From positions 1,156,607 through 1,220,606 of the forward strand of contig NZ_CH724125.1 of assembly GCF_000153345.1 (NCBI RefSeq): DNA of 64,000 nt. The letters run 5' to 3'. The first letter of the stretch is position 1, and every line of letters starts with the position of its first letter. The DNA is from Neptuniibacter caesariensis (GTDB lineage: Bacteria; Pseudomonadota; Gammaproteobacteria; Pseudomonadales; Balneatricaceae). Under the pieces are notes generated by a model. The model worked only from the letters and a program-made list of their open reading frames with translations, made no database searches and was not told the origin of the DNA. Shown here one piece after another: positions 23,170 through 28,933 of this stretch. The translations under genes were made by a program, and so were the position numbers.

Positions 23170-24438
23170 TTAGAACTTACGGCCAATATTAACCGAAAGC
23201 TGGTTACGGCTGTATTCGTAAAGCTCTACGTTAGAATCAGATACTGTTCTCAGCCAATATGCCGACAGTTCGTAGTCATTGCCAAAGGTGTGCTTGCCAC
23301 CAAACATCCACTGCCACTCTTCGTCGTCACGTGTTTTATTAATCAAGGTAACCGGAGCTTCGTAATCAGATTCGCTGTACGACATTCGACCAAATACACT
23401 AGTTGTAGGCTTTATCTGCCAGTTAGCTCCGACAAATGCTTCCCACCCCTCATAAGAATACTCAGTATCTTTGGCATGATTGTCATACCACTCAAAGCCA
23501 GCTTGAACACCAATGGTATTATTCTTGTAACCTTTACCCAGCGCTATACCCAGAGAGTAATAGTCGGAGTCACGACCCTGATCGCTCGCCTGTTCAAAAT
23601 CACGATCAGAAAATTCAGCATCAACAGTCAGTTCAGTACTGGCATCAAACGACCAGGTAACCGAAGGCTGGAGGCTAATATAGTTTGCAAGCTCATTACC
23701 ACCAAGGCGTATATGGTCTCCCTGCAGGGCCAGGTTTGCTCGCCAGTTACCATTAGTTACAAGCGCAGGACCTGTACGAACAGATAGAACATCTAGATTG
23801 AAGTCATCTTCGGTCTCATAACCACGGTGGTAGATAGATGCACCGCTCTGCCAGAACAGCATGCCCGTTTTCTGACCAATACGCATAGGCTTACCGGTAC
23901 GATAACTATGATCATAACTACCAGATAAAACCATCGCGTTATCATCTACAGGTCGCGTATTAATTGTTGCCAGGCTACCATTAATATCTACTACTGAACT
24001 ACCCGGACCCACATTGACATTGCTGTCATGTAGTACACCTACAGTAACATTGAACTTATGTTCATGCTGTGGTGTTAGTTGTTCAGCATCTTTTTTCAAC
24101 TGCGCTAGGAATGCAAGGATAGATACACGCACGCTCGGCGGTGTTTTCGGGTCATTCAGGACTTCCTGCGCCTGAGCTTCCGCTTCCTGATATTGAAGGG
24201 TCTGCATATACGCAACCGCTAATTCAAGACGAGCACGGTGTAATGAAGGCTGGTTACTTAGGATAGTCTGAAAAGATTCAATAGCATTATACGGAGAACC
24301 GGCTTCACGTTCTTCCATCCCCTGTTTGAAAAACTTTTCCGGATCAAACTCTTCGTTAGTTTCTGCCGTAACAACTGTCGATGCTAGCATCGACAAAACA
24401 GCACCAGACAGGATACTTACCCCGTTAGTTGCTTTCAT
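23170..24438 (-). CDS. Slam-like outer-membrane protein (TPR domain plus beta-barrel)
   Basis: A 422-residue exported protein. A signal peptide (about 1-25, ending VVTA) is followed by a helical TPR-like region (about 30-115: AGSPYNAIESFQTILSNQPSLHRARLELAVAYMQ). From about 128 on it is beta-rich with alternating patterns, many Trp/Tyr girdle residues and a terminal Phe (NIGRKF), the beta-signal of outer-membrane barrels. This layout, TPRs plus a roughly 14-strand barrel, is that of Slam (surface lipoprotein assembly modulator, DUF560) translocons. It is somewhat short for the family. The gene immediately upstream encodes a TbpB-like barrel protein, its likely client. Confidence 0.75.
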   Translation of the reverse strand: MKATNGVSILSGAVLSMLASTVVTAETNEEFDPEKFFKQGMEEREAGSPYNAIESFQTILSNQPSLHRARLELAVAYMQTLQYQEAEAQAQEVLNDPKTPPSVRVSILAFLAQLKKDAEQLTPQHEHKFNVTVGVLHDSNVNVGPGSSVVDINGSLATINTRPVDDNAMVLSGSYDHSYRTGKPMRIGQKTGMLFWQSGASIYHRGYETEDDFNLDVLSVRTGPALVTNGNWRANLALQGDHIRLGGNELANYISLQPSVTWSFDASTELTVDAEFSDRDFEQASDQGRDSDYYSLGIALGKGYKNNTIGVQAGFEWYDNHAKDTEYSYEGWEAFVGANWQIKPTTSVFGRMSYSESDYEAPVTLINKTRDDEEWQWMFGGKHTFGNDYELSAYWLRTVSDSNVELYEYSRNQLSVNIGRKF

Positions 24439-24511: not shown

Positions 24512-24540
24512 AAAAAAGGCACTAAAAAATAGTGCCTTTT
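24512..24540 (-). terminator. Intra-operon terminator between client and Slam-like genes
   Basis: An 11-bp perfect stem (AAAAGGCACTA with TAGTGCCTTTT) around five bases, followed leftward by a T-run. It sits 27 bases after the client stop and 74 bases before the Slam-like start, so it would let the client be made in excess over its translocon. Confidence 0.8.
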
Positions 24541-24566: not shown

Positions 24567-25937
24567 CTAGATATCATCAACCTGAATCTCAGGAATCTTT
24601 ACTTTTTCACTTAGCTCTGTGCTAAAAGTAGTGACATGGGTTGCATCCTGATAGCCCGCAGGATAAATCCGTTGCTCTTCAATACCATTAGGCACAACCA
24701 TTTTAGTTTTAACTATGTCAGCTACACCAGCAACTTCACCGGCGCCAGCCCCAAAGAAGCTCGCTGATACGTTACCTGTTACCGATGTTTCTGCACCGTA
24801 ATCAGTCGCCCCAAGATTTGAACTACTTGCTGTCAGATTAATTCCTTCAATAACACCACCTTCGACAGTAAAACCCACTTGTCCCATTAAGCTAGTGCCA
24901 TTTTCACTCGCATAGGCCATTACCATTCCATCACGACCTCGGTTGAACTCGCCGCTCCACGTGCTTGTAGAAAAGTTGATATCAAGAATCACCCTCGCCC
25001 CGAAAGCGGTATGCCCTGTGTAAGTTGCGGTAAGATCGGTAGCAAACTCGGCGAAATCATTACGATACTCCAGAGCGCCAATTAACGAACTAAGTTGATC
25101 AAGCGTTGAGGTAGTACCAAGTACATAACTACCTAAATATGCCTGAATAAACTCTTCTGAAGGATTGTAAGCACCTGTTGCCCAGAACCCATGTGATACA
25201 GCTCCTTCAGGGCCATCATACCCTCTGCGAAGCTGACCATCTGTTGCATCAACAAAGCCTTGTAAATGCCCCCGGTCTAATCGGTAGTAGCCACGCCTGC
25301 AGTTTCCTAGACACCTAAACGTTGCATCAGTGAGAGCATCTAGTCGATATAACCCATCATCATATTCATAGTGGATATTAAAAGGGCCTAAATGGGTTCT
25401 TTCCTCCAGAGGCATCGACAAGATATCGATATACAATCCCGGATCACCGTTAGGCGTTACTGCAAACTGAACAACACGATGACGACCTTCGGGCCCATCA
25501 ATAAATCGTACCCCCTCACCACCATCAATCCTAAGAATTTGTCCTGCAAACCCTGCCGCAACAGGGGTTAGACTCTGTATGCCATACTGGGCGAAAAGAT
25601 CTCCTCCAGGTCCAACAAACGATACCTCTGGTTCACTGTCTCCAGAATCATATGAAAATGGATAGAAACTGGCATACCCACAAGGCTGGCCAGGCTCGCA
25701 GCCCGTTTCAGGGATATTGATATCAGGATCTAGAAATACATGCTCAGGCCCTGTACCTCCAGCAAAAGCCAGTATCCCGGGACTCACTTCAGGACCTGCT
25801 GCTGGCGAAACAGGCAGCGCCCATGGGCCCCATTCGTGAACAGAATCCTTCTCACTCTCGTTATTCTGGTCAGCTTGAACCGTAGTAAACATAAGAGATG
25901 AGACTACAGCAGCCAAGGTTATTTTTTTAATGTCCAT
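24567..25937 (-). CDS. Secreted protein with TbpB-like C-terminal barrel, probable Slam client
   Basis: A 456-residue protein with a signal peptide (about 1-22, ending TVQA) and no lipobox, so it is secreted rather than lipidated. Residues about 300-410 show the TbpB/Slam-client eight-stranded barrel pattern: strands around FGARVILDINFSTSTWSGEFNRG and the signature FFGAGAGEVAGV at 394-405, matching the G-x-F-[FY]-G-x-x-A-x-E-x-x-G motif of transferrin-binding-type and hemophilin proteins. Two close Cys pairs (80/86 and 209/213) may form disulfides. AGGAGG precedes the ATG at 25937. The ligand is unknown; heme or another iron source is the family precedent. Confidence 0.72.
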   Translation of the reverse strand: MDIKKITLAAVVSSLMFTTVQADQNNESEKDSVHEWGPWALPVSPAAGPEVSPGILAFAGGTGPEHVFLDPDINIPETGCEPGQPCGYASFYPFSYDSGDSEPEVSFVGPGGDLFAQYGIQSLTPVAAGFAGQILRIDGGEGVRFIDGPEGRHRVVQFAVTPNGDPGLYIDILSMPLEERTHLGPFNIHYEYDDGLYRLDALTDATFRCLGNCRRGYYRLDRGHLQGFVDATDGQLRRGYDGPEGAVSHGFWATGAYNPSEEFIQAYLGSYVLGTTSTLDQLSSLIGALEYRNDFAEFATDLTATYTGHTAFGARVILDINFSTSTWSGEFNRGRDGMVMAYASENGTSLMGQVGFTVEGGVIEGINLTASSSNLGATDYGAETSVTGNVSASFFGAGAGEVAGVADIVKTKMVVPNGIEEQRIYPAGYQDATHVTTFSTELSEKVKIPEIQVDDI

Positions 25938-26224
25938 GGCGCACCTCCTGCGCTTCACATCATTAACGTATTCCTTTCCTTATCTCCTGTTACACTAATT
26001 TTAAGCATAGACAGCTGCTCAAATATGACTCAATTATCAACCACTAATACGCAGGATTTTTTTTCACCTCAAACAGATAGCCAGATACTTTCAGTCATAC
26101 TCACTTTAAAATAGATATAGCGCCTACTTTTACTCCAAACCGCATTGATCATCCCCGTTCACTTTTTAACTTTTTAACTTTTTTAAAACTCATATATGCT
26201 TAGGCTATTCATAGAGTGCACTAA

Positions 26225-26860
26225 ATGGACCCATTCATGCTGTTAAAGAAGCTAATCAGAGTTTTATTGCTGACTTTGCTTTTACCCCTGACTCACGTAC
26301 AGGCCGGTCTTTTTGGTTCAGAAGAACTCCCTCAGCGCTCATTAAATGAGCTTCCTGACTGGCTTAGCTACATGGAAAGACACCTTAGAGAGGATTCACC
26401 GGAAGAGATATGCGCTCAGTCAGGCCTATGCAACCTGAAACCCTGGTATAAGTTTCTTAATAGCATTAGAGGGCTTTCCAAAAGAGAACAGGTCATCAGG
26501 GTTAATAACTTTGCCAACAAGCAACCCTATATTCTCGATATTGATAACTATGGTCAGGAAGATTATTGGGCGGTAGTCAGAGAATTTTTAGCCCGGAGCG
26601 GCGACTGCGAGGATTACTCCCTTACCAAGTTTTTCTCATTAAGATTGCTAGGGTTCAGTAACGAAGAACTACGAATTGTTGTGCTTCAGGATACCAATCT
26701 CAGAATCGGGCACGCGGTGCTTGCGGTGAAATTCGGTGGAGATGAGCTTATTTTAGATAACCAAAGCCGACAAGTTTTGTCACACAGAAGTATCAAACAC
26801 TATGTTCCGCTATATACTGTGAATGAGGAACGTTGGTGGCTACACATGCCCGTATTCTAA
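26225..26860 (+). CDS. lapG: LapG-type periplasmic cysteine protease (transglutaminase-like)
   Basis: A 211-residue exported protein with a signal peptide (about 1-27, ending HVQA). The bacterial transglutaminase-like cysteine proteinase triad is visible: Cys128 in SGDCEDYS, His163 in RIGHAVLAV and Asp178 in LILDNQ. The acidic residues around Cys128 match the calcium site described for LapG. Trp114 in EDYWAVVREFL is a typical family position. LapG proteins cleave the N-terminus of large biofilm adhesins and are normally sequestered by the c-di-GMP receptor LapD. Here the next gene, 51 bases on, is not LapD but a degenerate HD-GYP protein. No adhesin gene lies nearby. Confidence 0.88.
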   Translation: MDPFMLLKKLIRVLLLTLLLPLTHVQAGLFGSEELPQRSLNELPDWLSYMERHLREDSPEEICAQSGLCNLKPWYKFLNSIRGLSKREQVIRVNNFANKQPYILDIDNYGQEDYWAVVREFLARSGDCEDYSLTKFFSLRLLGFSNEELRIVVLQDTNLRIGHAVLAVKFGGDELILDNQSRQVLSHRSIKHYVPLYTVNEERWWLHMPVF

Positions 26861-26911
26861 GATAGCTGTTATGATCAAAATAACCGAGCAACCACACAGG
26901 CTGGACAATTA

Positions 26912-28933
26912 ATGAAACGCGCCATTACAACAGGTTTTATTGTTCTCACTCTGATTTTTTTAATATGCCTAGTCTCCATTCAACGTTTCGGAGAGGAACA
27001 ACAAGAGCAAAGCCTGCAACATTGGCAAACCACACTGTCTGCTCTTGCGGATAATCAAAGCCTGAATGTTTCTCGCTGGATCTTTACCAACAAAGCCCCT
27101 CTAAAAGAGATCTCCTCAAACGGATCCGTTCAACTTTATCTGCAGCGGGTCACGGAAAAATCGGGCCAGGAGAGGGAGCAGGTCGCGCAAATTGATTATC
27201 TACGAAACCTGATTGTGGCAGCAGCGCAGCGAGAAGGATATCAAGACAAACAGCGCTCACAAGTCAATGCTAATTTACAAGTCATCGCCAACAGCTCCCT
27301 CAGTATCTACGACAAACATCTGGTCAAAATCGCCAGTACTGCCGGTACTACATTGCCATCTCCTGAGTTAGAGCGTGCAGTTTTGTTGGCAAAAGAGAGT
27401 GGAAGTATCACCACGAGTAAGATCTGGCTAAATGCCAATCAGGTACCGCAGATTGGTTTTGTCGCTCCGATCAAAGGATTATCCAATCTGGGTGCTGATA
27501 ATCAGATTATTGGTTTTTTGATCGGGGTAAAGAATGCTGAAAAAGAGCTTTTCACTCTGCTCAAAAACTTTAGTGTCGACCTTCAATCATTAGAGTCATC
27601 ATTGCTTCAGGCAACCGAAAGCGGCATTACTTATGCGAGCACCCTCCGCCAGGATAACTCTTCACCTTTAAGTAAAACCGTCGCTAGCAACAGCCAAACC
27701 GTTGCGGCAATAGGCTATAAAGAGAGTGGCTCATTTATAGAAGCATTGGATTACAGAAATGTAGAAGCGCTTGCAATCAGTAGAAACATTGCAGACAGTG
27801 ACTTAAAACTTATCCTAAAAGTTGATCGATCCGAAGCAATCGGGCCAAGTTTAAAGAAACAGGAAGAATTACAGACCATTCTGGTACTTGGTGCCGTAGC
27901 ACTACTTGCTATGCTTATCGCTGCTGGTTGGTACGGTAATCTAATCAGAGCTCAAAGGTCCAACGAAGAACTTCGCTCCACAACAGATGAATTGGAAGAG
28001 AAAACTCATCTATTAGATGCTATCAATAACAATGTCGCTGATATGGTTATGATCATCGATGAGCAACAGCAACTTGCCTTCATAAACCGGGCATTAGCGG
28101 ACAAAGTATCAACCAGCATCGAAGATAGTAAAGGCAAAAGCATTAATGCGGTGATGGGCAGCCATTATGCCGAGCAACTGGAGCCCGTCATTTCTCAATG
28201 CTTCCGCGATAAGACTGAGATGTCAGAGAAGAAAGTATTGAGCCTGAAAGGTCAGGAACTGACTTTCATGATTAGCCTCACGCCCATGCTTTATGGTTAT
28301 AAAGAATCGGTCATGCTGCATTTCCATGACATCACCCTTCTTGAAGCTCATCAACAACAGCAGACCAAGCTCCTGCGTCAGATTATGCAGTCCCTGATGC
28401 ATGCCATTGACCTTCATGATCCCTATACAGCCAATCACTCGCAGAAAGCGGCTTCTGTAGCATTAGCAGTTGCCGAAGCACTCGAGTTAGCCGAACAGGA
28501 TATAGAAACGGTAGAAATTGCGGCAAACCTTTGTAACTTAGGAAAACTCTCAATTCCTAAAGAGTTACTCACCAAAACTGAGTCTTTAACTGATGAAGAG
28601 CGTCAGATTGTTCAAAATGAAGCTAACTATGCTCATGAAATTCTCAAGGATATTGACTTTGAAGGCCCTGTGCTTGAAACCATCATTTACAAAAATGAAT
28701 ATTTGGATGGTTCAGGGCGTAAAGGCATCGTTGCTGATCAGATCCAGATCCACGCAAGGATTCTGACCGCAGTAAATGACTTTGTCGCGATGATCAGCCC
28801 TCGAGCGTATCGAGATAGCCTTCCCGTGGAGGTGGCTCTGGATCAACTGCTGCAATCAAGTGATAGCAAATATGATCGCCAGGTTATCGCTTCTTTGTTC
28901 CATGTCGTTGAAAACAAACTGGATCTCGACTGA
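26912..28933 (+). CDS. Membrane protein: periplasmic sensor, PAS and degenerate HD-GYP domain
   Basis: A 673-residue inner-membrane protein. Helices at about 7-22 and 322-340 bracket a periplasmic domain of about 300 residues. A PAS domain spans about 365-475 and an HD-GYP fold about 485-665. The HD-GYP fold is plain (LHDPYTANHSQKAA, LGKLSIPKELL, LDGSG, ARILTAVNDF) but the metal ligands are mostly lost: His509 and Asp623 remain, while HD is Cys541-Asn542, the next His is Glu570, HH is Lys594-Asn595 and GYP reads GRK. It should not hydrolyse c-di-GMP. Pairing with lapG suggests a receptor that controls LapG. Confidence 0.85.
   Translation: MKRAITTGFIVLTLIFLICLVSIQRFGEEQQEQSLQHWQTTLSALADNQSLNVSRWIFTNKAPLKEISSNGSVQLYLQRVTEKSGQEREQVAQIDYLRNLIVAAAQREGYQDKQRSQVNANLQVIANSSLSIYDKHLVKIASTAGTTLPSPELERAVLLAKESGSITTSKIWLNANQVPQIGFVAPIKGLSNLGADNQIIGFLIGVKNAEKELFTLLKNFSVDLQSLESSLLQATESGITYASTLRQDNSSPLSKTVASNSQTVAAIGYKESGSFIEALDYRNVEALAISRNIADSDLKLILKVDRSEAIGPSLKKQEELQTILVLGAVALLAMLIAAGWYGNLIRAQRSNEELRSTTDELEEKTHLLDAINNNVADMVMIIDEQQQLAFINRALADKVSTSIEDSKGKSINAVMGSHYAEQLEPVISQCFRDKTEMSEKKVLSLKGQELTFMISLTPMLYGYKESVMLHFHDITLLEAHQQQQTKLLRQIMQSLMHAIDLHDPYTANHSQKAASVALAVAEALELAEQDIETVEIAANLCNLGKLSIPKELLTKTESLTDEERQIVQNEANYAHEILKDIDFEGPVLETIIYKNEYLDGSGRKGIVADQIQIHARILTAVNDFVAMISPRAYRDSLPVEVALDQLLQSSDSKYDRQVIASLFHVVENKLDLD

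Follow-up and report, generated by a model that had tools for sequence, protein, structure and literature searches.

A candidate DvhG–DvhD-type proteolysis switch linked to type 11 (Slam) secretion in Neptuniibacter caesariensis

In the 64,000-nucleotide stretch of the Neptuniibacter caesariensis genome analysed here (the window), genes for a LapG-type protease and a DvhD-like membrane receptor lie beside genes for a Slam-type outer-membrane protein and a TbpB-like barrel protein. We propose, with a probability of roughly 0.6, that these genes form a DvhG–DvhD-type proteolysis switch attached to type 11 (Slam) secretion (T11SS), in which T11SS cargo is set free from the cell by a protease under c-di-GMP control. 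The proposal is based on gene content, conserved linkage, an N-terminal tag and its position in the cargo, a dead HD-GYP domain in the receptor and the structural match of the receptor to DvhD. From these we infer that the cargo depends on Slam, that the tag serves for docking and tethering, that it is cleaved, and in which direction the regulation runs.

In the proposed mechanism, the dead HD-GYP domain of the receptor would, as its homology suggests, bind c-di-GMP, and the signal would pass from the PAS domain through a stalk and the membrane helices to the periplasmic dCache domain, which would restrain the neighbouring protease (LapG2). The substrates of LapG2 would be the TbpB-like barrel proteins that the adjacent Slam would export. 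Soon after its signal peptide, each of these carries a tag that consists of a putative docking segment, DSVxxWGxW, followed by a candidate scissile site, [T/P]AAG. At high c-di-GMP the cargo would stay uncut and, by analogy with the Lap system, remain attached to the cell; a fall in c-di-GMP would free the protease, which would cut between the two alanines and let the cargo go. The presence of surface proteins with an apparent protease site suggests that the cell can cut them off on command. We regard the chances as about even for a wider form of the proposal, a widespread and so far undescribed c-di-GMP-controlled version of T11SS in which cargos of unlike sequence (five in this genome) share the tether-and-cleave tag and are all shed at once by a single LapG/DvhG-type protease that a dead HD-GYP receptor controls.

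The protease and its receptor

LapG2 (26225..26860, + strand; 211 aa) is a LapG/DvhG-type periplasmic cysteine protease by its match to Pfam Peptidase_C93 (E 5.7e-18). It has the catalytic triad C128-H163-D178 and, at residues 126-130, the GDCED calcium motif, and both the triad and GDCED (D130 included) are invariant in an alignment of nine LapG2 homologues. The LapG2 profile matches the solved LapG structure 4fgo at 5.2e-28. The intact Cys128/His163/Asp178 triad that an earlier note on this DNA had ascribed to a LapG is confirmed by the family match and by its invariance in the homologues. Taken together, the sequence and profile results place in LapG2 the LapG fold, the C-H-D triad and the GDCED motif that characterize the protease of the DvhG–DvhD module. 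Against the NCBIfam LapG model it scores 78 bits, far under the equivalog cut-off of 320, and a tree of 96 LapG rows unites the 11 canonical LapGs in one clade (100/100) and places the window-type LapG2 outside it. Judged by sequence, LapG2 is a separate, divergent protease type relative to canonical LapG.

The receptor ORF (26912..28933, + strand) starts 51 bases downstream of the LapG2 ORF on the same strand. Profile comparison with the PDB, AlphaFold2 and Foldseek give its 673 residues a predicted order of transmembrane helix, periplasmic dCache-like domain, transmembrane helix, PAS and degenerate HD-GYP, with HD_5 matching at E 2.3e-32 and the PAS match falling under Pfam's cut-off. This agrees with the periplasmic sensor, PAS and HD-GYP fold that had been noticed earlier in a 673-residue protein 51 bases after LapG. 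In the HD-GYP domain (about residues 476-668; 28337..28915, + strand; from the alignment and the PDB profile match), the HD dyad is C541-N542, the third His is E570, HH is K594-N595 and GYP reads GRK. These replacements (HD to CN, His to Glu, HH to KN) had also been read correctly from the sequence alone, and they are conserved: neither H nor D stands at the HD dyad in any of 57 aligned receptor homologues (56 distinct, as L070 and L110 are one genome). Because the degeneracy is shared across homologues it is not recent decay, and with the dyad residues absent in all 57 rows an active phosphodiesterase is unlikely.

A profile built from seven receptor homologues had as its top match in the PDB the DvhD of Desulfovibrio vulgaris (9rc0, 4.1e-62; 9rbz, 4.7e-47). 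In a Foldseek search with the AlphaFold2 model of the receptor (mean pLDDT 85.6, pTM 0.49), DvhD PAS/HD-GYP was ranked first, HD-GYP with c-di-GMP took ranks 2-5 and the periplasmic domain 9rc2 came at rank 15, so that all three solved DvhD fragments are matched by profile or Foldseek. The modelled periplasmic dCache-like domain (about residues 30-305; 26999..27826, + strand) superposes on 9rc2 with a TM-score of 0.78 by target length. Its approximately 275 residues, compared with 124 positions in the LapD domain model, are in line with the earlier expectation of a sensor larger than that of LapD. By profile and predicted fold, the 673-aa protein is a DvhD homologue.

DvhD is described as binding c-di-GMP without hydrolysis and as controlling the LapG-like DvhG in Desulfovibrio (PMC13090378). 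At the eight canonical c-di-GMP contacts of DvhD, the window receptor keeps five (the equivalents of Y523, L577, M646, R650 and Y652), has a conservative R at the K582 equivalent and has lost the equivalents of Y621 and E668; the equivalent of DvhD P567 is also retained. Among the 57 receptor rows, the R650 equivalent is found in 57, L577 in 52 and Y652 in 47. With five contacts kept, K582 changed to R and two lost, the window receptor is likely, though not assured, to bind c-di-GMP. The earlier note had proposed that a dead HD-GYP domain could form the basis of an alternative inside-out switch; the matches to the three DvhD fragments favour such a switch, but it is not new, as DvhG–DvhD is published. 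We accordingly set aside the idea of a new kind of switch, since DvhD, the top structural match of the receptor, is already in print (PMC13090378).

Slam and cargo genes

The Slam and cargo genes are divergent from the LapG2–receptor pair. The predicted T11SS/Slam cargo (24567..25958, - strand) is a TbpB-like beta-barrel protein according to Foldseek of its model, which returned TbpB, NHBA and fHbp; the pLDDT of this model is only 58, higher in the barrel part. Its signal peptide, assessed by eye, has no lipobox and is probably cut near residue 30. The called start is GTG, and an ATG at 25937 is the likelier start. Pfam TbpB_B_D is found in 9 of 22 cargo homologues, with the window cargo itself at only E 0.038. 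The neighbouring gene (23170..24438, - strand) encodes a Slam/T11SS (DUF560-like) outer-membrane protein with TPR and beta-barrel parts, scoring 23.4 bits with SlipAM, just over the cut-off of 22, and 31.3 with TPR_Slam, under the cut-off of 35.2; across 13 aligned Slam members, TPR_Slam is found in 11 and SlipAM in eight. Two features of a T11SS are present, namely the TPR and SlipAM barrel and the neighbouring TbpB-type barrel cargo, the latter resting on a model of moderate quality. The first reading of this neighbourhood had picked out the LapG2–receptor pair, which is real, and had overlooked the Slam and cargo genes that diverge from it.

A terminator-like hairpin (24514..24540, - strand), a consensus match only, lies in the gap that separates the cargo gene from the Slam gene and could set the ratio of cargo to Slam expression; seven such matches were found in the region against 4.9 expected. 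A promoter scan was uninformative (8 found, 10.1 expected), and Rfam and tRNA scans of the window were empty.

Linkage across genomes

Across 145 genomes of the order, LapG2 (E<1e-30), Slam (>600 bits) and the tag (E<1e-5) were each found in three, and these are the same three genomes (G000, G003 and G047), whose scores are inflated as they are rows of the Slam profile (A3) and of the tag profile (A6). The next-best Slam score in the order was 178 bits, and the best tag match in any other genome had E 0.02. Among 20 relatives, Slam scored >600 bits in all six that have the LapG2–receptor pair and in none of the 14 others (next score 134 bits); the Slam profile (A3) includes relatives G217, G226 and G175, whose scores are inflated for that reason, but not G182, G169 and G233. 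Six further genomes of the family, five from the window's genus and one from another, have the same neighbourhood, as do many loci of the genome scan and two genomes from a different family of the order; in these two, no receptor was found in the approximately 4 kb fetched on each side. Neptuniibacter loci L109 and L110 carry the same gene set; because they duplicate L069 and L070, the counts of cargos, Slams and tree rows exclude them. The pairing of LapG with the receptor, proposed earlier as a check in other genomes, is thus conserved, and chance is ruled out as an explanation of the Slam neighbour by co-occurrence and conserved linkage.

At least 32 distinct loci have a window-type LapG near Slam, and 27 of the 32 also have the receptor. 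The receptor is absent in three Slam and LapG2 loci with enough flank (L050, L051 and L180); L124 and L130 end too soon. All 32 distinct Slam and LapG2 loci listed have the tag, 31 of them with the site (L114 ends at a contig end within the tag, before the site), but because most Slam loci were reached through LapG2 this count does not show that Slam needs LapG2, a question on which the searches of the order (145) and of the relatives (20) do bear. The tag pattern had no match in 3.2 Mb of shuffled window. It was found in none of 18 loci around other LapG genes (one of which, L065, has no intact LapG ORF), in one of 55 LapG2 loci without Slam among the loci listed (L128, which holds a cargo gene) and in one of eight further Slam-like loci (L194, where the match is loose and does not resemble the tag).

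We tabulated the neighbourhoods of 87 loci, comprising 78 of the best 80 of 560 scan matches (L109 and L110 being left out) and nine others; two of the 87 rows, L139 and L152, have no LapG2 ORF. Slam is present in 32, at least two type 1 secretion (T1SS) parts (ABC, HlyD, TolC) in 19 and both in none, the T1SS parts being identified solely through BLAST comparison with those of L160 and L174. In the LapG tree, all 32 Slam-type rows fall in one group of 35 (95/82) together with L119, L120 and L128, which have no Slam in their stretch, and 18 of the 19 T1SS-type rows fall in another (99/96), the exception being L138. By record title, the linkage of Slam and tagged cargo spans several proteobacterial classes among the matches listed, and this spread, drawn from the best 80 of 560 matches, is a lower bound. 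Two outlying records, L141 (Mesoflavibacter) and L154 (Anaerolineae), have LapGs that group with or nearly equal alphaproteobacterial ones and are probably misplaced bins.

The N-terminal tag and candidate cleavage site

The tag of the window cargo, DSVHEWGPWALPVSPAAG, runs from residue 38 (25794..25847, - strand), soon after the signal peptide, in the pattern DSVxxWGxW...PAAG with PAAG at 25794-25805. This PAAG fits the site [T/A/P]AAG published for LapG/DvhG (motif in PMC13090378). In the alignment of 22 cargo ORFs (A5), in which the others are 20-58% identical to that of the window, nine columns are invariant and two of these are in the tag (W46 and A53), with S39, V40, W43, G44, A54 and G55 nearly invariant. 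When 32 tags are aligned, S, W, G and W are invariant and the two Ala nearly so. Among 38 distinct cargo ORFs, retrieved with a profile that itself contains the tag, [TAP]AAG is found in 30 and two adjacent alanines in 35, where five offsets after the second W of WGxW were compared and the best tetrapeptide was kept. For the second copies in L068 and L069, whose called ORFs have no WGxW, scoring relied solely on TAAG; L132, whose frame runs off the contig, is not among the 38. The eight sites off the strict motif are PAAS (2), TAAS, PAAA, PASG, PEAG, PKAG and PAAM; PEAG, PKAG and PASG have lost one of the two alanines. Shuffling puts the chance of a site match at 0.2% for an 8-residue slot and at 5% for anywhere in residues 20-150.

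The genome of the window has five tagged TbpB-like cargo paralogues at four places, with 63% identity in the tag and 26% after it. The four other than the window cargo, at three places (L205, L206 and L207), have no LapG2 gene in the stretches fetched; the L207 cargo has EYGPW for EWGPW and a weak score (E 0.0086). One of the tagged proteins at these places has a long Pro-Thr repeat linker. The receptor profile weakly matches (1.2e-14) a 589-aa protein (L205:1370-3139) encoded just upstream of a tagged cargo in L205. A gene pair beside one of the four extra cargos is presumably DUF1538.

Cargo architecture varies among the loci. Loci L111, L112, L113, L115, L116, L117, L125 and L131 carry a short tagged protein (113-195 aa) with Pro-rich sequence following the site, and in most of these eight a separate secreted-looking ORF comes next. 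The cargos of L050, L051, L123, L124, L126, L127, L129, L130 and L180 have the tag some 45-85 residues later than most, with a spaced-cysteine stretch before it that is perhaps a small retention domain. In two related genomes a second cargo copy (L068:3875-5098 and L069:3722-5049) has a frame break near its N-terminus.

LapD and other lapG genes

Profile searches found a lapG-lapD pair on contig C3 of the same genome, and the only LapD_MoxY_N match of the genome is the one on C3, beside its own LapG. The earlier suggestion that an HD-GYP protein stands here instead of LapD therefore fails, and replacement of LapD by the HD-GYP receptor in this genome is ruled out by the lapG-lapD pair. At the window locus itself, a domain search did not find LapD_MoxY_N, and the domains of the receptor are not of LapD type. 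A third, lone LapG-type gene lies on contig C4 (L005:5859-6536) with no LapD or receptor gene adjoining; a gene near it is, we assume, glmS-like.

LapD absence in genomes with the pair, the other check proposed earlier, gave a divided result: of 33 searched genomes with a window-type LapG2, many of them metagenome bins, 25 have no LapD match and eight do. The 33 genomes correspond to 35 loci, as one genome was absent and two loci share one. The 25 genomes with no LapD match include Pelagibius litoralis DSM 21314 (L160) and Pelagibius marinus (L163). Replacement of LapD by the HD-GYP receptor may hold in other genomes.

Alternative explanations

There are possible explanations other than cargo release. 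The pair could be an ordinary DvhG–DvhD (Lap-like) module that cuts a T1SS adhesin encoded elsewhere in the genome, with Slam and cargo as incidental neighbours. Related LapG2 loci, mostly alphaproteobacterial by record title, do carry T1SS genes (the 19 of 87 with at least two of ABC, HlyD and TolC), and the known substrates of DvhG, which cuts at [T/A/P]AAG, are large adhesins (PMC13090378). We nonetheless consider this quite improbable, since no T1SS part was found in the window, no listed locus combines Slam with two or more such parts, the Slam and cargo linkage extends (by record title, among the matches listed) over several proteobacterial classes, the LapGs of the two kinds of locus lie in separate tree groups apart from T1SS row L138, and the genome already has a lapG-lapD pair. 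Alternatively, as the tag and Slam are nearly always found together, the tag could serve Slam instead of the protease; in that case Slam or some other factor would recognize it as a signal for T11SS sorting or retention, [T/P]AAG would be no protease site, and the protease would act elsewhere in the pathway. The pattern of conservation is consistent with such a signal, in that S, W, G and W never vary across the 32 aligned tags, whereas the two Ala fall just short of constancy and three sites lack one of them. The agreement with the LapG site known from the literature is specific, however, and in the stretches fetched the eight other Slam-type loci of the order show neither a TbpB-like profile match nor a convincing tag. 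LapG2 is also linked in each Slam locus found, a weak point given that most were reached through LapG2. We think a sorting role in place of cleavage unlikely.

A further alternative concerns the signal rather than the substrate: the receptor may sense another cyclic dinucleotide or a periplasmic dCache ligand and control the protease accordingly. The lost Y621 and E668 equivalents would allow for this, and DvhD is reported to hold 3'3'-cGAMP as well, while its dCache ligand could not be determined (PMC13090378). We find this doubtful in view of the five of eight canonical-site residues kept in the window receptor, the R650 equivalent in 57 of 57 rows and the precedent of DvhD as a c-di-GMP receptor. 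Control of cargo release by c-di-GMP through the LapG2–receptor pair remains our preferred reading.

Comparison with known systems

In published accounts, as far as these sources extend, LapG-type proteolysis acts on large adhesins, and those of T11SS show no regulator of cargo release. If the proposal is true, the DvhDG switch would be a portable part plugged into two unrelated secretion systems, the T11SS of environmental bacteria would gain a regulator and a tag by which cargo can be found, and dozens of unannotated surface proteins would become predictable protease substrates.

The closest known system is DvhG–DvhD of D. vulgaris, which shares with the window a LapG-like protease adjoining a membrane receptor of dCache, PAS and dead HD-GYP domains. 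The neighbours differ, being Slam/T11SS and barrel proteins of a few hundred residues in the window and T1SS with giant adhesins in Dvh, and the HD dyad is CN in the window receptor and SQ in DvhD. Ahead of the candidate cleavage site the window cargo has WGxW, whereas Dvh has a retention domain and targeting helix; in many cargos only a short segment precedes the site, with no folded retention domain as in DvhA. A Dvh operon joins T1SS parts and a large adhesin to the pair, and because no T1SS part was found in the window we claim only the DvhDG pair. PMC13090378 maps DvhDG across bacterial classes and looks at the genes around 78 DvhD homologues, among which its authors may have encountered Slam-linked loci; the words 'Slam' and 'transferrin' do not occur in its accessible text. 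With LapG–LapD of Pseudomonas fluorescens, the window has in common the protease family, the [T/A/P]AAG site and, by analogy, inside-out control, whereas its receptor is not LapD-like and LapG2 lies outside the canonical LapG group.

In the open-licence literature we found no publication that appears to join T11SS with LapG or DvhG, and the words LapG, transglutaminase and HD-GYP are absent from the main texts, as accessible, of PMC8406197 and PMC12282271. The T11SS/Slam systems with TbpB-like cargo that these papers describe share with the window an outer-membrane TPR-barrel protein beside a TbpB-type barrel cargo with a signal peptide; relative to those descriptions, the window adds a dedicated LapG-type protease and a tag. 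The DvhDG pair is thus already known, and its coupling to T11SS appears to be new.
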